DNA from: an uncultured Rhodobiaceae bacterium
GTDB lineage: Bacteria; Pseudomonadota; Alphaproteobacteria; RS24
Direction: 5' to 3'
NCBI GenBank assembly: GCA_937907245.1
Contig: CALCUM010000002.1
Coordinates: 310,001-374,000, forward strand
DNA: 64,000 nucleotides
Below, one piece after another: positions 47,295 through 62,316 of the stretch (positions are counted from its first letter, which is position 1; each line of letters starts with the position of its first letter). The notes under the pieces are model-generated. The model saw only the letters and a program-made list of their open reading frames with translations, had not been told where the DNA came from and made no database searches. The translations under genes were made by a program, and so were the position numbers.

Positions 47295-48137
47295 TTAAAA
47301 GGAAGTGTCGGCAATGGTAGTGCGGTGCAATAGGCGGTCGTAGCCATCATAGCCGCCGGTTGCGGCATGCAAGAGCGAGCGATTGTCCCACATCACCAGC
47401 ATGTCTTTTTGCCAAGGGTGCGAATACATAATTTCAGGCGCGCTTTGATAGCCATAAAACTCGAGCATCAAAGCGTCGCTCTCTTGTTTGTCATAGCCCT
47501 CAAACCCCAAAATATAGGCAGGCGAGCTATATAAGGCTTTCTTGCCCGTCTCGCGATGGGTACGCACGAAAGGGTGTTGGTTTTTCTCCAGCGCCTTTTC
47601 GCTTGGCAAAATATTCATGCTGCGACCTTCGTCGGCATCGCCATAGGCGCCGTGCGGAGAATAGCCAAGCTCGGCTGAATGAATGGCGGTTAAGCTGTCG
47701 GCCTTGTCGCGCAAAGCGTCGGGCAGGCGTTCATAGGCGGCCACTTGGTCGGCATATAGCGTATTGCCGCCGTGCGGGGGGATGACCAAACTATATAAAA
47801 CCGTGCCCGCCGGCGGCACATCCAAAAAGCTCCAGTCGGAATGCAAGCTCTCGGCAAAAATCGGCGTGGTCTCATCCGCATTGCGTTGAATGGCAGCAAT
47901 GTTTTCATGCCCGTCGATATGGCCAAAAAACGGATCTTCGCCGAACTCGCCAAATTGTAGCGTAAAGCGCTCGAGGTCTGTGTCGGTCATTTTTTGCTCC
48001 GGGAACGCCAGCACTTTATGTGTCACCCAATGTTCGCGCAGCTCAGCAACCAAATCCGGCGACAGCGACTGCGATAGGTTCACGCCAGTGACAAAAGCTC
48101 CACAACTGGAGCCAGTAGGGGTAACGGTTAACGGCAT
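47295..48137 (-). CDS. TauD/TfdA family 2-oxoglutarate dioxygenase
   Basis: 280 residues of a double-stranded beta-helix dioxygenase. The HxD metal motif is in LHSDWSF, and the distal His with the 2OG-binding Arg is in LLHRTTI near the C-terminus. It hydroxylates a small substrate with 2-oxoglutarate and O2. Taurine, a sulfonate, 2,4-D-type ethers or a gamma-butyrobetaine analogue are family possibilities. GGGAGAG precedes the ATG. Confidence 0.92.
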   Translation of the reverse strand: MPLTVTPTGSSCGAFVTGVNLSQSLSPDLVAELREHWVTHKVLAFPEQKMTDTDLERFTLQFGEFGEDPFFGHIDGHENIAAIQRNADETTPIFAESLHSDWSFLDVPPAGTVLYSLVIPPHGGNTLYADQVAAYERLPDALRDKADSLTAIHSAELGYSPHGAYGDADEGRSMNILPSEKALEKNQHPFVRTHRETGKKALYSSPAYILGFEGYDKQESDALMLEFYGYQSAPEIMYSHPWQKDMLVMWDNRSLLHAATGGYDGYDRLLHRTTIADTSF

Positions 48138-52719: not shown

Positions 52720-53124
52720 TTAAGGCTGTCGCCAGGGTAACCCCTCAAACTTCCAGCCTTCTTGAGTGCCGCGATGGCCTTCCAAGTCTGGATTGCCTTC
52801 AAAGCCGCCGGTCACGTTAAACAGGCTGGTAAAGCCCGCTTCTGCCAAGGCTTGGCAGGCGGCGGCAGAGCGCGCGCCCGAGCGACAAATCAGATAAATA
52901 GAAGTCGCTTTGTCGATATGTTCAATGACCTTGCTGCAAAAGGCTTCGTTGCGTTGGCCGTCGACGCTTTGCCATTCCAGACACGCGACTTGTTTGCCAA
53001 TAGGGCTTAAATCTGGCGTGCCGATAAGGTTCCATTCGGCCATCGAGCGGCAGTCGATAAGCTGCGCGTCGGCGTCTTTTTGCAGGGCTTCATAAGCGGC
53101 GCTGGGCAGGATTTCACTAAACAT
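52720..53124 (-). CDS. Rhodanese-like sulfurtransferase
   Basis: 134 residues, one rhodanese domain with active Cys80 in LICRSGARS. It transfers sulfane sulfur (for instance to sulfite or cyanide), cytosolic. It is 50 bases downstream of the ROK kinase in the same direction, so it may belong to the sulfosugar-like cluster. Confidence 0.92.
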   Translation of the reverse strand: MFSEILPSAAYEALQKDADAQLIDCRSMAEWNLIGTPDLSPIGKQVACLEWQSVDGQRNEAFCSKVIEHIDKATSIYLICRSGARSAAACQALAEAGFTSLFNVTGGFEGNPDLEGHRGTQEGWKFEGLPWRQP

Positions 53125-53174
53125 AATCTATATTCCTCACGGTCTCTTAAAGTATGGCGTTTGCGAGCTTTCTT

Positions 53175-54068
53175 TTAAGCCTTGTTCGGCCAAAGCCAAG
53201 CGGCACCTCTTACGCCACTGCTGTCGCCGTGTTGATTTTTTCTCACTTGCGTTTCAATCACGTCTGAGAATATATACGCATCCCAGATTTCCGGCAATCT
53301 TTGGTAAAGCGCATCGACATTCGACAAGCCGCCGCCCAAGACGATGACTTCCGGGTCGACCAAATTAATCACCGCCCCTAAAGCGCGCGCGAGGCGGTCG
53401 CATAAGCGGTCAAAACTGGCCTTTGCGGCGGGGGTGTCGCTGGCCATAATTTCTTCGCTGGTAAGCGTTTCCCCATTTATCAAATTATGATCTCGGGCAA
53501 AGCCAGAGCCAGATATCCAAACTTCATTGCAGCCATGGCGGCCACAATAACACGCAGGCCCTGGCACTTCCTCAGCCGTGGGGGCGGCCAATGGGTTGTG
53601 CCCCCATTCTCCACCAACCCCATTGGCGCCATTTTGTAATTGGCCAGAGATAACCAATCCGCCGCCGCAGCCAGTGCCCAAAATGACCCCGAAAACCGAT
53701 TGGGCACCTTGTCCTGCGCCATCGGTGGCCTCTGACAAAGCAAAGCAATTGGCGTCATTGGCTAGCCGCACTTCGCGCCCGAGGCGTGTTTCTAGGTCTT
53801 GGCGCAAAGGTTGTCCGTTCAGGCTTTGCGTATTGGAGTTCCGAACCCATCCGGTTTTGGGCGACAGCGAACCCGGCATGCCAATGCCCACGCTCACAGT
53901 TTCCCCAACTGCCGCTTCGCCAGCTTCAACGAGCTGGACGATGGTTTGCACAATATTTGTATAGTCGCTAGCGGGCGTTGGTGCGCGTTGGCGCCAAATA
54001 ATGTCGCCGGCGCCATCCATCACAATGGCTTCCATTTTCGTACCGCCGAGGTCTAATCCAAATCGCAT
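53175..54068 (-). CDS. ROK family sugar kinase
   Basis: 297 residues. LDLGGTKMEA is the ATP site, NDANCFALSE carries the catalytic Asp (Asp105), GGEWGHNPL holds the ROK Glu-Gly-His motif (His157), and CYCGRHGCNE is the zinc site (173-180). It phosphorylates a hexose, glucose or fructose most likely. It begins on the base after the monooxygenase stop, so it is in the same operon. Confidence 0.93.
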   Translation of the reverse strand: MRFGLDLGGTKMEAIVMDGAGDIIWRQRAPTPASDYTNIVQTIVQLVEAGEAAVGETVSVGIGMPGSLSPKTGWVRNSNTQSLNGQPLRQDLETRLGREVRLANDANCFALSEATDGAGQGAQSVFGVILGTGCGGGLVISGQLQNGANGVGGEWGHNPLAAPTAEEVPGPACYCGRHGCNEVWISGSGFARDHNLINGETLTSEEIMASDTPAAKASFDRLCDRLARALGAVINLVDPEVIVLGGGLSNVDALYQRLPEIWDAYIFSDVIETQVRKNQHGDSSGVRGAAWLWPNKA

Positions 54069-55163
54069 TTAAGCCTCCACTGTGTCGAAGGTTAGGGGGG
54101 CATGGTTGATTTGGGGAAGTACGTATTTAGCAAATAAATCGCACTCGTCGCGGTGCGGATAGCCCGACAGAATAAAGCTTTCAATACCTAACTCTCGATA
54201 GGCATTGAGCTTGGCCAAAACCTGGTCTGGATCGCCTACAATAGCCGCTCCACAGCCAGAGCGCGCGCGGCCAACGCCCGTCCATAGATTATCTTCGACA
54301 TAGTCACCGCTACCGGCAGCATTGGCGGCTTCGCGCATCTCGGCTTGTCGGCGCACCCCAACCGAAGCGCTATCAAGCGAACGGTTGCGAATGTCTTCGC
54401 CAATTTTATCGTCTAGGCGACTGACCAATAGGTCGGCTGCCTCGCGCGCTTGCGCCTCGGTTTCGCGCACAATCACATGCGCCCGATAGCCATATTTCAA
54501 GGTGCGATTATAGGTCTTGGCGCGCGCCTTCATGTCGTCCAATACGGCTTTTACTTTGTCCATTGTGTCTGGCCACATAAGAAAAACATCGGCTTCGGCG
54601 GCGGCGACATCGCAGGCAGGGGGGGACAGGCCGCCAAAATAAAACGGCGGGCTTTTGCCCGAAACCGTGCCGATACGGGGCGGCTCTAAATCGAGCTGCA
54701 CGAACTCGCCATCCATTTGCACCGCTTGGCCATTTAAAAATTGGCGCAAGGCCTGCATGGTTTCGCGCGTGCGTTGATAGCGCGCGCGTCCTTCGAGGGT
54801 TTGGCCGGGAAGGTCAGACGAAATAATATTAATCGTCAGGCGCCCGTTCAACATTTGGTCGAGGGTAGCCAGTTGGCGAGCCAATTGCGGCACCCACATC
54901 TCGCCACAGCGCACGGCGACCAGCAACCGCATTTGCTCCAGCAGGGGCGCAATGCCGCCCGCAAACGCAATACTATCCATGCCGAGGGTATAACCGGAGG
55001 GCAGAAGAATATTGTCAAAACCGTTTTTATCGGCGCTCTGGGCGATGTCGCGACAATGCGGCCAGCTAGCTTTCAAGCTCGGGTCTTCCACGCCCAAAAA
55101 TTGGTAATCATCGTCGCAAAGAGCGGAAAACCAACTTATTTCAGCTTGAGGCAGGGCGGTCAT
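54069..55163 (-). CDS. SsuD-like flavin monooxygenase, candidate sulfoquinovose monooxygenase
   Basis: 364 residues of the LLM class (TIM barrel, FMNH2-dependent). Residues corresponding to the SsuD active site are conserved: Trp197 (LMWPDT), Arg227 and His229 (GYRAHVIVRE) and His337 (SGYPHRDE). SsuD cleaves alkanesulfonates to aldehyde and sulfite; the SQ monooxygenase SmoC has the same fold. Its neighbours (AKR, MocA, ROK kinase) favour a sulfosugar over an alkanesulfonate; no ssu transporter or flavin reductase is nearby. AGGAG precedes the ATG. Confidence 0.9.
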   Translation of the reverse strand: MTALPQAEISWFSALCDDDYQFLGVEDPSLKASWPHCRDIAQSADKNGFDNILLPSGYTLGMDSIAFAGGIAPLLEQMRLLVAVRCGEMWVPQLARQLATLDQMLNGRLTINIISSDLPGQTLEGRARYQRTRETMQALRQFLNGQAVQMDGEFVQLDLEPPRIGTVSGKSPPFYFGGLSPPACDVAAAEADVFLMWPDTMDKVKAVLDDMKARAKTYNRTLKYGYRAHVIVRETEAQAREAADLLVSRLDDKIGEDIRNRSLDSASVGVRRQAEMREAANAAGSGDYVEDNLWTGVGRARSGCGAAIVGDPDQVLAKLNAYRELGIESFILSGYPHRDECDLFAKYVLPQINHAPLTFDTVEA

Positions 55164-55184
55164 ATCGGCTCCTTTGACGAATGA

Positions 55185-56099
55185 TTAGGGAAGGGGCACA
55201 CCTTCAGCGGCTTCTATGAGGGCGTATATGTCCGAGCGTGTCAACGAAAGCTCGGTGGCTTTTTGCGCGGCTTTCATGCGCTCTACCGACTGCGATCCGA
55301 GGAGCGCCACGGGTTTAGAGGGATGCGCCAAAACGAAAGCGAGGGCGATGCCCGCGCGGTCTGTGGCTTCGCGGGTCGCGAGGGCGTCGAGTAATTGGCC
55401 CAACGCAGGCGCCACATCGGGCCCCATAAGGCTACCTCCGCCGAGCGGAGACCAAGCCAAAAACGCCGTATCTTGGCGCATACAGTCATCCAAAGTGCCA
55501 TCTCGCAAAGGCTGCAAATGGCTCAATGAATATTGCGACTGAACGCTAACCAGCGGCGCTTTGAGGAAATGGCGCAAGGCGTCTGTTTGGGCTTTGGTGT
55601 AATTAGAAACGCCGACCATGCCAATTTTGCCCGCTTGTACCAAACCATCTAGGGCGGCCGCGGTTTCGGCGGGATGGGTAAACATGTCTGGCCGGTGAAT
55701 TTGATACAGGTCGATAGACTCGCATTGCAGGCGCGCAAGCGATGCGTCAACGGCGCTGACTAAATAGGCGGCATTGGCGACATAAGGCACGCCAGGAATA
55801 ATGCTCCCTTTACTGGCCAGCACCATGCGGTGGCGCAAATTGGGCGTCGCGGCCAGCACTTTGCCGAGCAAAGCCTCGCTTTCGCCAAAGGCTTTGCCGC
55901 CCCAATCGAGGCCATAGACATCGGCGTTATCGATAAGCGTCATGCCGCAATCGAGCGCCGTTTCAATGCGGGTCGTAGCCTCTGCAACATCCTCACCGAC
56001 CAAGCGCCAGCAACCAAAGCCCAAAGCGCCCACCGGCTTGTCGCCCAAGAGACGAGGGGTTCCATCGACTAAATTTTGGTCTGCACCGATTGTGTTCAT
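55185..56099 (-). CDS. Aldo/keto reductase (SmoB-like candidate)
   Basis: 304 residues, TIM-barrel NADPH reductase. Catalytic tetrad: Asp57, Tyr62 (DNADVYG), Lys97 (LASKGS) and His135 (YQIHRPD). In the sulfoquinovose monooxygenase route an AKR (SmoB) reduces 6-oxo-glucose to glucose. Its ATG overlaps the MocA stop by four bases. Confidence 0.92.
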   Translation of the reverse strand: MNTIGADQNLVDGTPRLLGDKPVGALGFGCWRLVGEDVAEATTRIETALDCGMTLIDNADVYGLDWGGKAFGESEALLGKVLAATPNLRHRMVLASKGSIIPGVPYVANAAYLVSAVDASLARLQCESIDLYQIHRPDMFTHPAETAAALDGLVQAGKIGMVGVSNYTKAQTDALRHFLKAPLVSVQSQYSLSHLQPLRDGTLDDCMRQDTAFLAWSPLGGGSLMGPDVAPALGQLLDALATREATDRAGIALAFVLAHPSKPVALLGSQSVERMKAAQKATELSLTRSDIYALIEAAEGVPLP

Positions 56100-57160
56100 A
56101 GTCCTAGCTCCGTCATGTCTACGCGGCGTTTTTCGTGTGCCGCCATTTGTGCAGCGACGCCCATGGCAACGGCTCGATGGCCATCGTCGGCGCTAACCAC
56201 AACTTCGGCTTCGCCGCGAACCGCAGCCAAAAACGCTTGGTTTTGATGGTAGGTAGCGCCGGAGTGATAGCCCGCGTTTAAAATTTCTTCGGGCACGTGA
56301 ACGTCGGTTTTATCGACCGCCCATGTATCTCTATGGCCATGGGTTACTATGTTTTGCGGCAAAAGGCACTCCACCTTGGCCTTATCGCCCATGGCGGCAA
56401 GTTCTTCGGAGTGGCGCGAGCCTTCGGCGAACATGCAAAGGTCGAGCATGGCGCGGGCGCCGTTTTCGAAGTCGAACACGACATAGCCATTGTCCCAAAT
56501 ATCGGGCGTGTGGCCATCGTAACTCTCGTTCATATGGTTGACGTTTTGGCCAGCTGAGGCCACGACGCCAACGGGTTCGCTGCCAATTATCAGCCGCATC
56601 AGGTCGAAGAAATGGCAACATTTTTCTACCAATGTGCCACCCGTATTGGCATTGAAACGGTTCCAATCGTCGACTTTGGGCAGGAATGGAAACCGATGTT
56701 CCCGGATGGATAGCATATGCACTTTGCCGATATCGCCACGCTCGACGCGACCAATCATCTCGGCCAAAGCGGGTTTAAAGCGATACTCCATGCCGACTTG
56801 AAAGGTTAGCTTATCGCGCGTCACTTGCTGCATAACTTCTGTCGTGTCTGCCAATGTGGTGCAAAGCGGCTTCTCGCATAATATCGGTTTTCCAGTGCTA
56901 AGGGCGGCTCGTAATACGTCGATGTGATGAAAATTCGGCGTCGCAATAACTAGCGCATCGAGGCTGTCATCGCTGAGGAGGCTTTCATAATCATGGCTGG
57001 TGCGGGCATCTGTGTCGCTAAGCTCTAGCGCTTTGGCCAGCATGGGCGCGTTGGTATCGGCGATGGCCGCGATGCGGGCACCGTCTAACAAGTTGAAGTT
57101 TTGAATATGCTCATGGCCCATCAGCCCAGCGCCGATGAGACCAATATTTAAGTCCGTCAT
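56096..57160 (-). CDS. Gfo/Idh/MocA oxidoreductase, candidate NAD-dependent glycosidase
   Basis: 354 residues. GLIGAGLMG at 7-15 binds NAD, LCEKP at 94-98 is the usual Lys motif, and GTLVEKCCHFFDL carries the His. Sugar dehydrogenases of this family are common, but GH109 and GH188 use the same fold with tightly bound NAD for glycoside cleavage. Next to an SsuD-like enzyme and an AKR it could be a GH188-type sulfoquinovosidase. Sequence inspection alone cannot decide. Confidence 0.9.
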   Translation of the reverse strand: MTDLNIGLIGAGLMGHEHIQNFNLLDGARIAAIADTNAPMLAKALELSDTDARTSHDYESLLSDDSLDALVIATPNFHHIDVLRAALSTGKPILCEKPLCTTLADTTEVMQQVTRDKLTFQVGMEYRFKPALAEMIGRVERGDIGKVHMLSIREHRFPFLPKVDDWNRFNANTGGTLVEKCCHFFDLMRLIIGSEPVGVVASAGQNVNHMNESYDGHTPDIWDNGYVVFDFENGARAMLDLCMFAEGSRHSEELAAMGDKAKVECLLPQNIVTHGHRDTWAVDKTDVHVPEEILNAGYHSGATYHQNQAFLAAVRGEAEVVVSADDGHRAVAMGVAAQMAAHEKRRVDMTELGL

Positions 57161-57163
57161 GCG

Positions 57164-57796
57164 TTACGCTCCATCGAAGCCAGATAATTTTTTGGCGGTC
57201 GAGCTTTTGGGAACATCCTTGGTGGTTTTCCACGTGCCAAGCAGCACATCGCCAAGCCCATTGGTGATGCCCCAATTATAGTTTTCATTATGAAAATGGT
57301 GGCGCATATGCGCCTCGCGCAAACTCACGCCCCATTTGGTTATCGGCTTATAGCTTTGCGTATGGTGTGCCAAATGCGTCCATTCATAGACCAGATAATA
57401 GGCGACAGAGGTCAGCAGCGGCACCCAAACGGCCTCTTGCGGTTGGCCGAGCAGATAAATCATCAGCGCATAGCTGATATAAAGTTGGCCGAACATAAGG
57501 AGGATGGCGCTGGTGGGTGCAAATTGCAGGTCGCGGCGCTCGGGGTATAGATGATGGCCATGGTGCAGCCGAATTTGATACTCGCGCCAGAACCCCGGCT
57601 TCTCCGTAAGGTCGCGATGCAGCGTATATTTATGCGTGACCCATTCGAAAAAAGGGGCAGAGACAATCACCAAAACCGCCCACGGCCAATGCTGCCAAAG
57701 CGCCTGCGTGGTGACGATATAAAGGCTGATGGCAAAGGCCAAAAATAGCATTTGAACGCTGGTATGGGTTACATAATTACGCAAGATGTCTCGCAT
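57164..57796 (-). CDS. Sterol desaturase/fatty acid hydroxylase superfamily membrane protein
   Basis: 210 residues with several membrane helices and the eight-histidine di-iron pattern: HKYTLHR, HHGHH, HLAHH and HMRHHFH. It hydroxylates or desaturates a lipid or carotenoid. The frame opens 63 codons further upstream, over the GH3 gene, but GGAGAT before the ATG at 57796 sets the start. Three bases separate it from the MocA gene, so it heads that operon. Confidence 0.9.
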   Translation of the reverse strand: MRDILRNYVTHTSVQMLFLAFAISLYIVTTQALWQHWPWAVLVIVSAPFFEWVTHKYTLHRDLTEKPGFWREYQIRLHHGHHLYPERRDLQFAPTSAILLMFGQLYISYALMIYLLGQPQEAVWVPLLTSVAYYLVYEWTHLAHHTQSYKPITKWGVSLREAHMRHHFHNENYNWGITNGLGDVLLGTWKTTKDVPKSSTAKKLSGFDGA

Positions 57797-57934: not shown

Positions 57935-60340
57935 ATGAAACAACCATCGGAATTTGCAGGCAAAGCCCAAAAGCTCGTCGCCCAAATGTCTATCGAGGCC
58001 AAGGCCTCGCTGATGTCTGGCTCTAGTTTTTGGGATTTACAGCCCGTTGAAGAATTTGGACTTGGCAAAGTCATGGTGTCCGATGGCCCGCATGGGCTTC
58101 GCAAACAAGGCGCCAAGTCAGACCACATGGGGTTAAGCGCTGCCGTTCCCGCCACCTGTTTCCCCACAGCCGTTACCTTGGCATCGAGCTGGGACGTTGC
58201 GTTAATACGCGAGGTTGGCGCGGCCATTGGGCGCGAATGTATGGCCGAGAGTGTGTCGGTTTTGCTGGCACCCGGTGTCAACATTAAGCGCAGCCCCTTA
58301 TGCGGCCGCAATTTTGAATATTACTCAGAAGATCCTTATCAAGCCGGTGAGATGGCCAGCGCTTTTGTGGGCGGTGTGCAGTCGACGGGCGTAGGCACCA
58401 GCTTGAAACATTTTGCCGTCAACAACCAAGAAGCCCAACGCATGGTGGTCGACACGTTGGTCGACCCGCGCAGTCTATTTGAAATTTATCTACCGGCCTT
58501 TGAGACGACAGTAAAGCAAGTTCAGCCTTGGACGCTGATGTGCGCCTATAACCGTTTCAATGGCGTTTATTGTTCTGAGAACGAAACCTTGCTGACCGAT
58601 ATTTTGCGCGATCGTTGGGGGTTTAAGGGCTTGGTGGTGACCGATTGGGGCGCGGTGAACGACCGCGTGCGCGGCGTGGCCGCTGGCTTGGAATTGGAAA
58701 TGCCAAGCACGGGCGGGGTTAATGACCGCCAAGTCGCGGCTGCCGTGCAAGAGGGGCGGCTGCAGGAGGCGCATCTTGACCGCGCTGCGTCGCGTGTCAC
58801 GGAGCTTATTCTGGCGGCCCAAAATAACGCCACCGCTTTAGAGGTAGATTTTAAAGCCCATCATGCCTTGGCCCGAAAGGCGGCTGCCGAGGGTGCGGTA
58901 TTATTGAAGAACGAAGCCAATGTGTTGCCGCTGACGCCCAAGGACAGCGTGGCTTTGATTGGGGCTTTTGCCAAGACGCCGCGCTATCAAGGCGCCGGTA
59001 GTTCGCAAGTCAACGCCACCCAAATAGACACGCCGCTAGCGCTTTGGCGAGAAAAACTAGGCGAAGAAAACGTCACTTATGCGCAAGGCTTTGATGCCGA
59101 ATTAGCGACAGAAGATAAGGCGCTCATTGAAGAAGCCGTAGCGCTTGCCAAGCAAGCCAAAGTAGCGATTGTGATGGCGGGTCTGCCGCCTTTGTTTGAA
59201 GCGGAAGGGTTTGACCGCGCGCATTTGCGCCAGCCCGCCCAAATTGAAAACCTCATCGAGGCCGTGGCTGCGGCCAACCCCAATACCGTGGTGGTCTTGT
59301 CGAATGGCGCGCCGATTGAAATGCCTTGGATTGACGCGACCCCAGCTGTGCTGGAAATCTATTTGGCAGGTCAGGCTGGCGCAGGGGCGCTCGTCGACTT
59401 GGTGTATGGCGAGGTAAACCCAAGCGGAAAATTGGCCGAGACGTTTCCGTTGCATTTGGAAGATAGTCCGAGCCAGCAGAATTTCGCGACGCATCCTCGC
59501 CAATTGGTATATCGCGAAGGGCTAAATGTTGGCTATCGCTATTTCACCAGCCATGATGTGCCTGTGCTTTTTCCGTTTGGTCATGGCCTCAGCTACACAA
59601 AATTTACCTATAGCGATGCGCAAGTCCTCTCGCCGTGGTCGCCAGACAGCGAGCAAATAAGCGTGTCGGTGAAAGTGTCCAATTCTGGAACCCTAGCGGG
59701 TGCGGAAGTAGTGCAAATCTATGTGCGCGATGTAGAAAGCATCCCGTATCGGCCAGACCGCGAGCTGAAAGCGTTTCAAAAAATCACTCTGCAAGCGGGC
59801 GAAACCCGAGAGTTGGAGTTCACGCTAGCGCGTCGTGCTTTTGCCTATTTTGATATTGAGCTAGACGATTTCGATGTCGAGCCAGGCGCGTTTGATATTT
59901 TGTTTGCGGCCTCGGCCACCGATATTCGCCAAACCCTGCGCGTCGATTTGCCAGCCGGCTCGCAACGTAATTCGTCCCCCTTGGCCGAGGCGCCTTATGT
60001 GGTGATGGAGGACGCGCAACTTTCCGCCTTGGGCGTGCATGTGCCAAAAGCCGACGCGATTAAGCCCTATCATGCCAATTCTACCTTGGCCGATATTCGC
60101 TACCATTGGCTGGGCAAGCGCGTGGCGGCGGCCGCGATGGATATGGCCAGTGCCGCATTGGGGCAAGGCAAAGACACGCCGGTGGCGATTAAAATGCGCG
60201 AGGAAATGATTATGTCGATGCGCTTGATTACCGTCAGCAATATGTCGGCGGGCGCCTTGGCGGGCAAACGTTTCGAGTTATTATTGCTCGCGTTAAACAA
60301 TCGCTGGCTGCGCTTAGTGTGGCGCTTGATACGGCCTTAA
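57935..60340 (+). CDS. GH3 family beta-glucosidase-like enzyme
   Basis: 801 residues. N-domain with SDGPHGLR (Asp50), LKHFAVNNQE and the nucleophile Asp237 in VVTDWGA. The second (alpha/beta sandwich) and FnIII-like domains follow, and the last about 110 residues resemble the extension of some bacterial enzymes. There is no signal peptide, so it works in the cytoplasm on imported glycosides. It is divergent from the MocA/AKR cluster. Its stop shares a TTAA with the convergent gene. Confidence 0.93.
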   Translation: MKQPSEFAGKAQKLVAQMSIEAKASLMSGSSFWDLQPVEEFGLGKVMVSDGPHGLRKQGAKSDHMGLSAAVPATCFPTAVTLASSWDVALIREVGAAIGRECMAESVSVLLAPGVNIKRSPLCGRNFEYYSEDPYQAGEMASAFVGGVQSTGVGTSLKHFAVNNQEAQRMVVDTLVDPRSLFEIYLPAFETTVKQVQPWTLMCAYNRFNGVYCSENETLLTDILRDRWGFKGLVVTDWGAVNDRVRGVAAGLELEMPSTGGVNDRQVAAAVQEGRLQEAHLDRAASRVTELILAAQNNATALEVDFKAHHALARKAAAEGAVLLKNEANVLPLTPKDSVALIGAFAKTPRYQGAGSSQVNATQIDTPLALWREKLGEENVTYAQGFDAELATEDKALIEEAVALAKQAKVAIVMAGLPPLFEAEGFDRAHLRQPAQIENLIEAVAAANPNTVVVLSNGAPIEMPWIDATPAVLEIYLAGQAGAGALVDLVYGEVNPSGKLAETFPLHLEDSPSQQNFATHPRQLVYREGLNVGYRYFTSHDVPVLFPFGHGLSYTKFTYSDAQVLSPWSPDSEQISVSVKVSNSGTLAGAEVVQIYVRDVESIPYRPDRELKAFQKITLQAGETRELEFTLARRAFAYFDIELDDFDVEPGAFDILFAASATDIRQTLRVDLPAGSQRNSSPLAEAPYVVMEDAQLSALGVHVPKADAIKPYHANSTLADIRYHWLGKRVAAAAMDMASAALGQGKDTPVAIKMREEMIMSMRLITVSNMSAGALAGKRFELLLLALNNRWLRLVWRLIRP

Positions 60341-62316
60341 TCGCGCAAATCTAACCACTGCACTTGCTTCGGCGTCAGCTGAATATCGGCGGCGCGCAAA
60401 CTGTCTTGCAATTGCATGGGCGTGCGCGGGCCGATGATGGCGAAACACGGAAATGGCTGGCGTAAGACATAAGCCAAAGCGATTTGTAGCGCGTTAACGC
60501 CTAGGTTTTCAGCCAGCTCAAAGGCGCGGCGGCGGCGCTCTAGGTTTTCATCCGAGCCCCAGACGCGGTTCATTTCTTCATCGCTCGGGTCGGCGCCGTG
60601 GCGGGTGGCGGCAAGGCCGGTGGCTTCCCAATCGAGGAAAAATCCGCGGGCTTGGGCTGACCAAGGCAGCAGCGCCATATTGTTTTTTGTGTGCCAGTCG
60701 CGAAACACATCTGTGGAGCTGGCCAAGCAGCCCGGCCAGACAGGGGTTTGCATGCGCGCCAGAGAAAAATTATTCGACAATAGCGAGAAGCCTTGCAGGC
60801 CATTGGCATCAGCATAAGCATTGGCTTCGTCGATGCGCTCTGCGGTCCAATTGGAGCCACCAAATTGATGGATACGCCCCGCACGGACTTCGCGGTTGAG
60901 CACGTCTATCCATTCGGATACGGGCACATTGGGGTCGTCGCGGTGCAGGCAATAGAGGTCTAGATAATGGGTCTGGAGGCGCTCCAGCGAAATATCCAAT
61001 TGCTGTGACACCGCATCAGGTGTGCAATCTGGCGTGTGCGCGCCCTTGGATAAAACCACCAAGTCATCGCGCAAGCCACGTGCGGCCATCCATTCGCCAA
61101 GTAGGGCCTCGGAGTGCCCGTCGGAATAAATAAAAGCCGTGTCGAAACAATTGCCGCCCGCTTCCACAAAAGCATCGGCCATGGCGGCCATTGTCGGCGC
61201 GTCAATTTGATTGTCGGTGCCCAGCACTAATTTCGATACGGGTTTGGCCAAGTCGCCCAAAGCGGCGGTTTCCAGTTTGGCGTGCGCGCCTAGGCGTACG
61301 GTTTTTCCGTGAAAGCCCATGGGGCCCAATGTGTCGGCGGCATAAATAACGCCGCCGGCCTCGCGCCATCGATCCATCCAATAGGCGGTGTTTATGCTGA
61401 AATCGGGTGTCACCAAATCGGAAGTTTTGGCCCCGCGCGCCAGCAATTCGCCCATATGGTCTGCCTCCATGGCGTAGAGGGGACGTGGCTCGTCGCTAGT
61501 GTGAACGGTCTCCACGCCGGCCGCATCGGTAATAGAAATGTGATTATTCTCAGGCCCGGGATGCCAAGGCTGGGTAATTTTTAAAGTGCCAGTCTCGCCT
61601 TCAACCGTAATGTGCCAGTCTAAATTCGTATCGATAGCGCAATGAAGATGTGCGTCAAACCCGTCATAGGCAAGGCTTGCTTTGGCTTCGGCATCGGCGC
61701 CACTAGGGGCCAATCTAGCTTCGCCGGTCAATCCGCTGGGCTCGCCGAGGAAATAGCGCGCTGCCGTGAGGGGGTAAATGCCAATATCCAGAATGCCGCC
61801 GCCCGCGCGCTCGATATCATAAAGGCGATGCTCTGGCGTGAAGGGGAAAGCAAACCCAAACGAGGAGCTGAAGCCTGTGATCGTGCCAATGGCATCTTCC
61901 TCAATCAGCTTTTTGGCCAAATGCATGCGGGGATGCATAAGATACATCAGCGCCTCGACCAGCAGGGTACTTTTGCGCGCCGCTTCGCCATAAATATTCA
62001 AAACTTGCCCTTGGTTGAGCCCAAGCGGTTTTTCGCATAGCACAGCTTTACCCGCAGCCAGCGCTTTATGGCTCCAAGCCACATGGCTGTCATGGGGGGT
62101 GGCAATATAGACGGCATCAATGTCTTGGCGCGCAAGCAGTGCGTCATAATCGGATGGTGTGCCGCCATGGGTGTCGCAAAAAGCCTGCGCTTTATTTTTG
62201 TCGCGGCTGGCGACGCCAGCTAAAACGCCTGTGTGGCTGTGGGGTAAGTCAGTAGCAAATTGCGTAGCAATGCTGCCAGTGGCAAGAATGCCCCAGCGGA
62301 TTTTCGATGATGACAC
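60337..62316 (-). CDS. Fused Gfo/Idh/MocA oxidoreductase and aldo/keto reductase
   Basis: 659 residues with two complete enzymes. The N-half (about 1-330) is MocA-like: ILATGSIATQFA near 9-20 and VLCEKPLG near 92-99. The C-half (about 340-659) is an AKR: LVLGTDNQID, CFDTAFIYSDG (Asp/Tyr), VVLSKGAH (Lys) and YCLHRDDPN (His). Both parts look intact. The frame is single, with no break. Two consecutive redox steps on one sugar may be channelled. It lies 15 bases after the CYP153 gene. Confidence 0.92.
   Translation of the reverse strand: MSSSKIRWGILATGSIATQFATDLPHSHTGVLAGVASRDKNKAQAFCDTHGGTPSDYDALLARQDIDAVYIATPHDSHVAWSHKALAAGKAVLCEKPLGLNQGQVLNIYGEAARKSTLLVEALMYLMHPRMHLAKKLIEEDAIGTITGFSSSFGFAFPFTPEHRLYDIERAGGGILDIGIYPLTAARYFLGEPSGLTGEARLAPSGADAEAKASLAYDGFDAHLHCAIDTNLDWHITVEGETGTLKITQPWHPGPENNHISITDAAGVETVHTSDEPRPLYAMEADHMGELLARGAKTSDLVTPDFSINTAYWMDRWREAGGVIYAADTLGPMGFHGKTVRLGAHAKLETAALGDLAKPVSKLVLGTDNQIDAPTMAAMADAFVEAGGNCFDTAFIYSDGHSEALLGEWMAARGLRDDLVVLSKGAHTPDCTPDAVSQQLDISLERLQTHYLDLYCLHRDDPNVPVSEWIDVLNREVRAGRIHQFGGSNWTAERIDEANAYADANGLQGFSLLSNNFSLARMQTPVWPGCLASSTDVFRDWHTKNNMALLPWSAQARGFFLDWEATGLAATRHGADPSDEEMNRVWGSDENLERRRRAFELAENLGVNALQIALAYVLRQPFPCFAIIGPRTPMQLQDSLRAADIQLTPKQVQWLDLRD

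Follow-up and report, generated by a model that had tools for sequence, protein, structure and literature searches.

Organisation of the gene cluster

The window, that is, the whole stretch of 64,000 nucleotides that was analysed, harbours six consecutive genes on the minus strand and a divergent glycosidase gene next to them. Each of the six products passed its Pfam cut-off. The genes are listed in the order of transcription, with the divergent neighbour at the end.

57164-57796, minus strand: membrane hydroxylase of the fatty-acid-hydroxylase superfamily (PF04116), first gene of the operon
56096-57160, minus strand: predicted NAD-dependent sulfoquinovosidase of family GH188 (SqgA family) with a MocA fold (phmmer matches, residues)
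55185-56099, minus strand: AKR, predicted 6-oxo-glucose (6-dehydroglucose) reductase of the SquF type (PF00248, tree)
54069-55163, minus strand: LLM protein, predicted FMNH2-dependent sulfoquinovose (SQ) monooxygenase of the SmoC/SquD family (identity, tree, diagnostic columns)
53175-54068, minus strand: ROK sugar kinase, predicted glucokinase (PF00480, 2.8e-76)
52720-53124, minus strand: single-domain rhodanese with a CRSGARS loop (PF00581), optional and not part of the core
57935-60340, plus strand: GH3 glycosidase (PF00933/PF01915), divergent neighbour and candidate member only

The hydroxylase gene ends 3 bp before the MocA-fold gene, which overlaps the AKR gene by 4 bp (ATGA); the AKR and LLM genes are 21 bp apart, the LLM and ROK genes abut (0 bp), and 50 bp separate the ROK gene from the rhodanese gene. 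This is in agreement with the preliminary description, which reported six same-strand genes at these coordinates nearly without spacing; the MocA-fold gene, described there as the first of the operon, is actually the second, behind the hydroxylase gene. Orthologues of the LLM protein in related genomes share 77-94% amino-acid identity, so the coding is real. Scans of the cluster for promoters and terminators gave results at chance level.

The GH188, AKR and LLM genes occur together across the host family and in many other bacteria, so the cluster is more than a chance arrangement. In relatives of the genus coded g4 (genera are given below as g1, g3, g4 and g6) the block of hydroxylase, GH188, AKR and LLM genes is kept, and the surrounding genes are otherwise unrelated. 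Linkage was counted at 46 GH188 loci with flanks of 4 kb or more on either side; these loci are not an unbiased sample, as they were the top hits of the window protein. A monooxygenase of the SmoC clade lies within 5 kb in 33 of them, and in 29 there is an AKR as well.

The GH3 gene is separated from the hydroxylase gene by 138 bp, on the opposite strand. It lies beside the SQ cluster in g1 and g6 genomes and is absent in g4. Next to it, a gene at 60337-62316 (minus strand), conserved in g1 and g6, encodes a natural fusion of 659 amino acids between a Gfo/Idh/MocA dehydrogenase and an AKR, two folds that the SQ operon encodes in two neighbouring genes. Two loci of the same genus (L056:7013-8341 and L192:12743-14200) possess a GH4 gene of the alpha-galactosidase subfamily between the GH3 and hydroxylase genes, in the direction of the operon. 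GH4 is another type of NAD-dependent glycosidase, and this gene is absent in the window.

Predicted sulfoquinovosidase

The product of 56096-57160 is predicted to be a GH188 NAD-dependent sulfoquinovosidase. A phmmer search against solved structures gave 8zn9 (3e-95), 8qc3 (2e-91) and 8qc2 (3e-90) as best matches, whereas the next match, the ordinary dehydrogenase 3ezy, was found at 1e-26. The structures 8qc2 and 8qc3 are the sulfoquinovosidases FlSqgA and ArSqgA (PMC10755693), and the window protein shares 46% identity with ArSqgA.

In an alignment of 119 GH188 sequences we examined the positions that contact NAD+, the sugar and the sulfonate in the SQ-bound structure. The sulfonate-binding residues R166, L170 and K172 of ArSqgA are kept as R156, L160 and K162. 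The catalytic and sugar-binding residues K107, Y136, E163, E189, H193 and H321 correspond to K97, Y126, E154, E179, H183 and H299; E163 of the ArSqgA paper is residue 164 in the chain numbering used for the alignment. All nine active-site and sulfonate residues are thus present in the window protein, and they are common to 118-119 of the 119 aligned sequences. The proposal that the MocA-fold protein belongs to GH188 is borne out by these matches and residues, including the conservation of the SQ-binding residues of the solved structures, which the preliminary description had suggested checking. A grouping with inositol dehydrogenases, named there as evidence against the proposal, did not occur.

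A truncated P278-T293 loop has been reported for Tyr variants of GH188 (PMC11465081). This short loop is found in 57 of the 119 aligned sequences, and 118 of the 119 retain L170. The Tyr change therefore does not go along with loss of the loop, and the short loop is uninformative here. In several uncultured marine alphaproteobacteria (L064, L069, L070, L074, L075, L077 and L091) the GH188 gene belongs to a different conserved set without monooxygenase, which includes ABC transporter ATPase-like and sugar-kinase-like genes, among others. This set is possibly a sulfoglycolytic route.

Predicted SQ monooxygenase

The product of 54069-55163 is predicted to be an SQ monooxygenase of the SmoC/SquD family. 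Its best solved matches are 7olf (7e-114) and 7oh2 (8e-109), deposited under generic names, which we take to be the Rhizobium and Agrobacterium SmoC structures; Escherichia coli SsuD was matched at 9e-58. The protein is 52% identical to RoSmoC and 50% identical to AtSmoC, compared with 35-40% for SsuD and MsuD. In a tree of 48 sequences it falls into a clade with RoSmoC and AtSmoC (support 98/91), and SsuD and MsuD are split from the SmoC side by a branch with 100/100 support. Among the alignment columns diagnostic for the two SmoC proteins versus SsuD and MsuD, the window protein is SmoC-like in 54, SsuD/MsuD-like in 21 and neither in 43. Pocket motifs of the SmoC type are also present. The earlier suggestion of a SmoC-like enzyme agrees with both branches of the tree, and the grouping with SsuD that was named as counter-evidence was not observed.

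Predicted 6-oxo-glucose reductase

The AKR gene, a member of PF00248, lies 21 bp from the LLM gene and is thus linked to the predicted SQ monooxygenase. The protein is 31% identical to 7bby, presumably Agrobacterium SmoB, and 34% identical to E. coli YdhF, so that similarity alone cannot assign it and its predicted function rests on linkage. In the AKR tree it forms a clade with 100/100 support with the AKRs of the GH188 loci of Sphingomonas, Novosphingobium and Caulobacter, and the clade of SmoB and the Roseobacter proteins is separate. The reading of this protein as an orthologue of Agrobacterium SmoB, which had been put forward earlier, is therefore not retained. The AKR of a Novosphingobium locus (L063) served in the tree as a proxy for the characterised SquF of N. 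aromaticivorans. Taken together, the AKR and monooxygenase trees place the operon on the SquD/SquF side, that is, with the Novosphingobium pathway (with SquF represented by the L063 proxy), and the AKR is predicted to be a 6-oxo-glucose reductase of the SquF type. A sulfo-SMO pathway is recognised by co-located SmoB and SmoC homologues (PMC13372026); the adjacent AKR and LLM genes of the window correspond to such a pair, the AKR being a SmoB homologue at the level of the family and not of the clade.

Predicted glucokinase

Searches of the host genome with the ROK and Glk families matched no protein other than the ROK protein of the cluster. Among the 25 genomes G000-G024, which represent the genus and the family, the ROK gene accompanies the GH188 and monooxygenase genes in all 17 genomes that possess them and is absent from the eight that lack them, some of which are incomplete. 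In one of these eight, G010, the contig ends with the hydroxylase gene, just ahead of the expected position of the SQ genes, so that their absence may reflect a gap in the assembly. Because the genomes are related and come from one family, the co-distribution represents few independent events. In three g4 genomes the ROK gene is on another contig, and the association is thus not due to linkage alone. The top NCBIfam model was fructokinase, with a score below the cut-off. We infer that the kinase is a glucokinase which would phosphorylate the glucose product of the pathway.

Hydroxylase and rhodanese genes

The hydroxylase gene lies beside the GH188 gene in g1, g4 and g6 genomes. It is also present in g3 genomes and in G075, which lack both GH188 and monooxygenase genes and have unrelated genes alongside. 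We found no support for its inclusion in the cluster, as the preliminary description had it, nor for treating it as an SQ pathway gene, since it occurs in relatives without SQ genes; it is not regarded as a core gene. A weak solved relative of the hydroxylase is the yeast fatty-acid hydroxylase Scs7.

In several g1 relatives the cluster is otherwise intact but has no rhodanese gene directly downstream of the ROK gene. The suggestion that the rhodanese uses the released sulfite is not supported, and a link of this gene to sulfite was rejected for that reason. A dioxygenase of the TauD family is encoded at 47295-48137 (minus strand), about 4.6 kb from the operon; it scores 160 bits with the taurine dioxygenase model (cut-off 313) and could be another organosulfur enzyme.

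Candidate pathway genes elsewhere in the genome

The host genome has a size of 1.8 Mb, is rated 100% complete, and was examined by family searches and in two stretches. Its nearest public records are marine Rhodobiaceae MAGs. The search with the GH31 family (PF01055) gave no match, so the statement that no GH31 is visible holds for the whole genome. The flavin reductase, which was to be looked for outside the window, was found as a single PF01613 protein (G000:C2:738568); it is unlinked to the operon and resembles several two-component systems.

No transporter is linked to the SQ operon. The genome has 14 MFS matches, none of them clearly related to the MFS protein of the sphingomonad cluster (at best about 31% identical). 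Genes for CysD, CysH and a protein of the sulfite/nitrite-reductase family are present, so sulfite could be assimilated. Directly upstream of the sulfite-reductase-like gene of the genome are ABC transporter genes (L193:6240-8859, on G000:C3), whose substrate-binding protein is weakly SsuA-like (38.7 bits, where the cut-off is 163.5); this transporter was left unassigned.

Proposed pathway and alternative explanations

The cluster is very probably an aerobic sulfolytic SQ operon of the sulfo-SMO (sulfo-ASMO) type, as judged from its sequences. The GH188 enzyme would hydrolyse SQ-glycerol or other SQ glycosides via a transient NAD+-dependent oxidation at C3. With reduced FMN and O2, the SmoC/SquD-type monooxygenase would convert SQ to sulfite and 6-oxo-glucose, which the SquF-type AKR would reduce to glucose. 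Glucose would then be phosphorylated by the ROK kinase to glucose 6-phosphate. The reduced flavin would probably come from the single unlinked flavin reductase, and the sulfite may be assimilated via CysD, CysH and the sulfite/nitrite-reductase-family protein.

Alternatively, the same chemistry might be applied to another sulfonated sugar or sulfonate, for instance a glycoside of a sulfo-sugar other than SQ. The monooxygenase shares only about 50% identity with tested SmoC, and GH188 enzymes cleave alpha and beta SQ glycosides alike (PMC10755693), so the marine substrate could be other than SQ-glycerol. Nevertheless, the three residues that contact the sulfonate in the SQ-bound structures, and those that contact the sugar, are all kept in the GH188 protein, and in Sphingomonas and Roseobacter clusters this gene trio is associated with SQ (PMC10755693), which makes a different substrate very improbable. 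It is extremely improbable that an ordinary SsuD-type alkanesulfonate monooxygenase and an inositol or sugar dehydrogenase are accidental neighbours here. Broad HMMs do name an alkanesulfonate monooxygenase and an inositol 2-dehydrogenase, all below cut-off, but the monooxygenase tree, the diagnostic columns and the GH188 residues contradict this reading, and the linkage of GH188 and monooxygenase genes recurs across phyla.

The membrane hydroxylase might process the sulfolipid (its acyl or alkyl chains, for instance) ahead of the GH188 step; this would add to the SQ-operon reading and not replace it. The hydroxylase gene lies 3 bp ahead of the GH188 gene, and this position is retained in g1, g4 and g6 genomes, even where the surroundings have changed. 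However, its presence in g3 genomes and G075 without GH188 and monooxygenase, and the lack of a hydroxylase gene in the examined flanks of GH188 loci outside the host family, make such a role unlikely. That the hydroxylase acts on the intact sulfolipid or lysolipid, and that the operon would thereby encode a membrane-bound entry step into SQ degradation, is quite unlikely. To our knowledge, no SQ pathway with a membrane-bound hydroxylase as entry step has been described.

Comparison with known systems

Clusters in which GH188 and SQ-monooxygenase genes occur together have been published, including those of Sphingomonas and Roseobacter (PMC10755693), so the arrangement is not partly novel as had been proposed. 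Similar to the sulfo-SMO clusters of N. aromaticivorans and Sphingomonas (SquD and SquF, with GH188 in Sphingomonas sp. Leaf17), the operon has a monooxygenase and an AKR of the same lineages, and it shares GH188 with Sphingomonas. The SQ cluster of N. aromaticivorans, with SquD and SquF, likewise has no linked flavin reductase (PMC9594981). In the sphingomonad loci the GH188 gene is divergent from the AKR and LLM genes, and TonB- and MFS-type genes are near, whereas the window operon runs in a single direction, includes a ROK kinase gene and has no linked transporter.

The smo cluster of Agrobacterium and Rhizobium (SmoA-SmoC, GH31 SQase, ABC transporter) corresponds to the same chemistry, with a SmoC in the same clade. 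The window differs from it in having GH188 for GH31, an AKR of a branch other than SmoB, and no linked flavin reductase or transporter. The Roseobacter sulfo-SMO loci with GH188 are likewise marine and likewise combine GH188, monooxygenase and AKR. In contrast to the window, they possess a GntR-like regulator, a linked flavin reductase, TRAP-type transporter genes and an AKR of the SmoB type. The accessory genes of the Roseobacter and sphingomonad loci were read from sequences and gene clusters and not from a family scan. An uncultured actinobacterium (L124) harbours a minimal AKR-GH188-LLM operon, with the same three enzymes in one direction and no adjacent transporter, but the gene order is different and ROK and hydroxylase genes are lacking.

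Significance for the host family

About 10 billion tons of SQ are produced per year, and the identity of its degraders in the ocean is an active question (PMC10755693, PMC13372026). About two thirds of the genomes searched from the same genus and family carry the GH188 gene, and a search of open-access papers returned none naming both Rhodobiaceae and sulfoquinovose. The predicted operon would allow the host to release the sulfur-sugar head group of algal sulfolipids and to convert it to ordinary glucose, by a pathway known from other bacteria. The analysis adds the uncultured marine family as host and the co-distributed kinase, and the known biochemistry is unchanged. The SQ operon is thus placed in a streamlined, uncultured family of marine alphaproteobacteria, where it points to the full use of the six carbons of SQ, with a kinase step that is testable.
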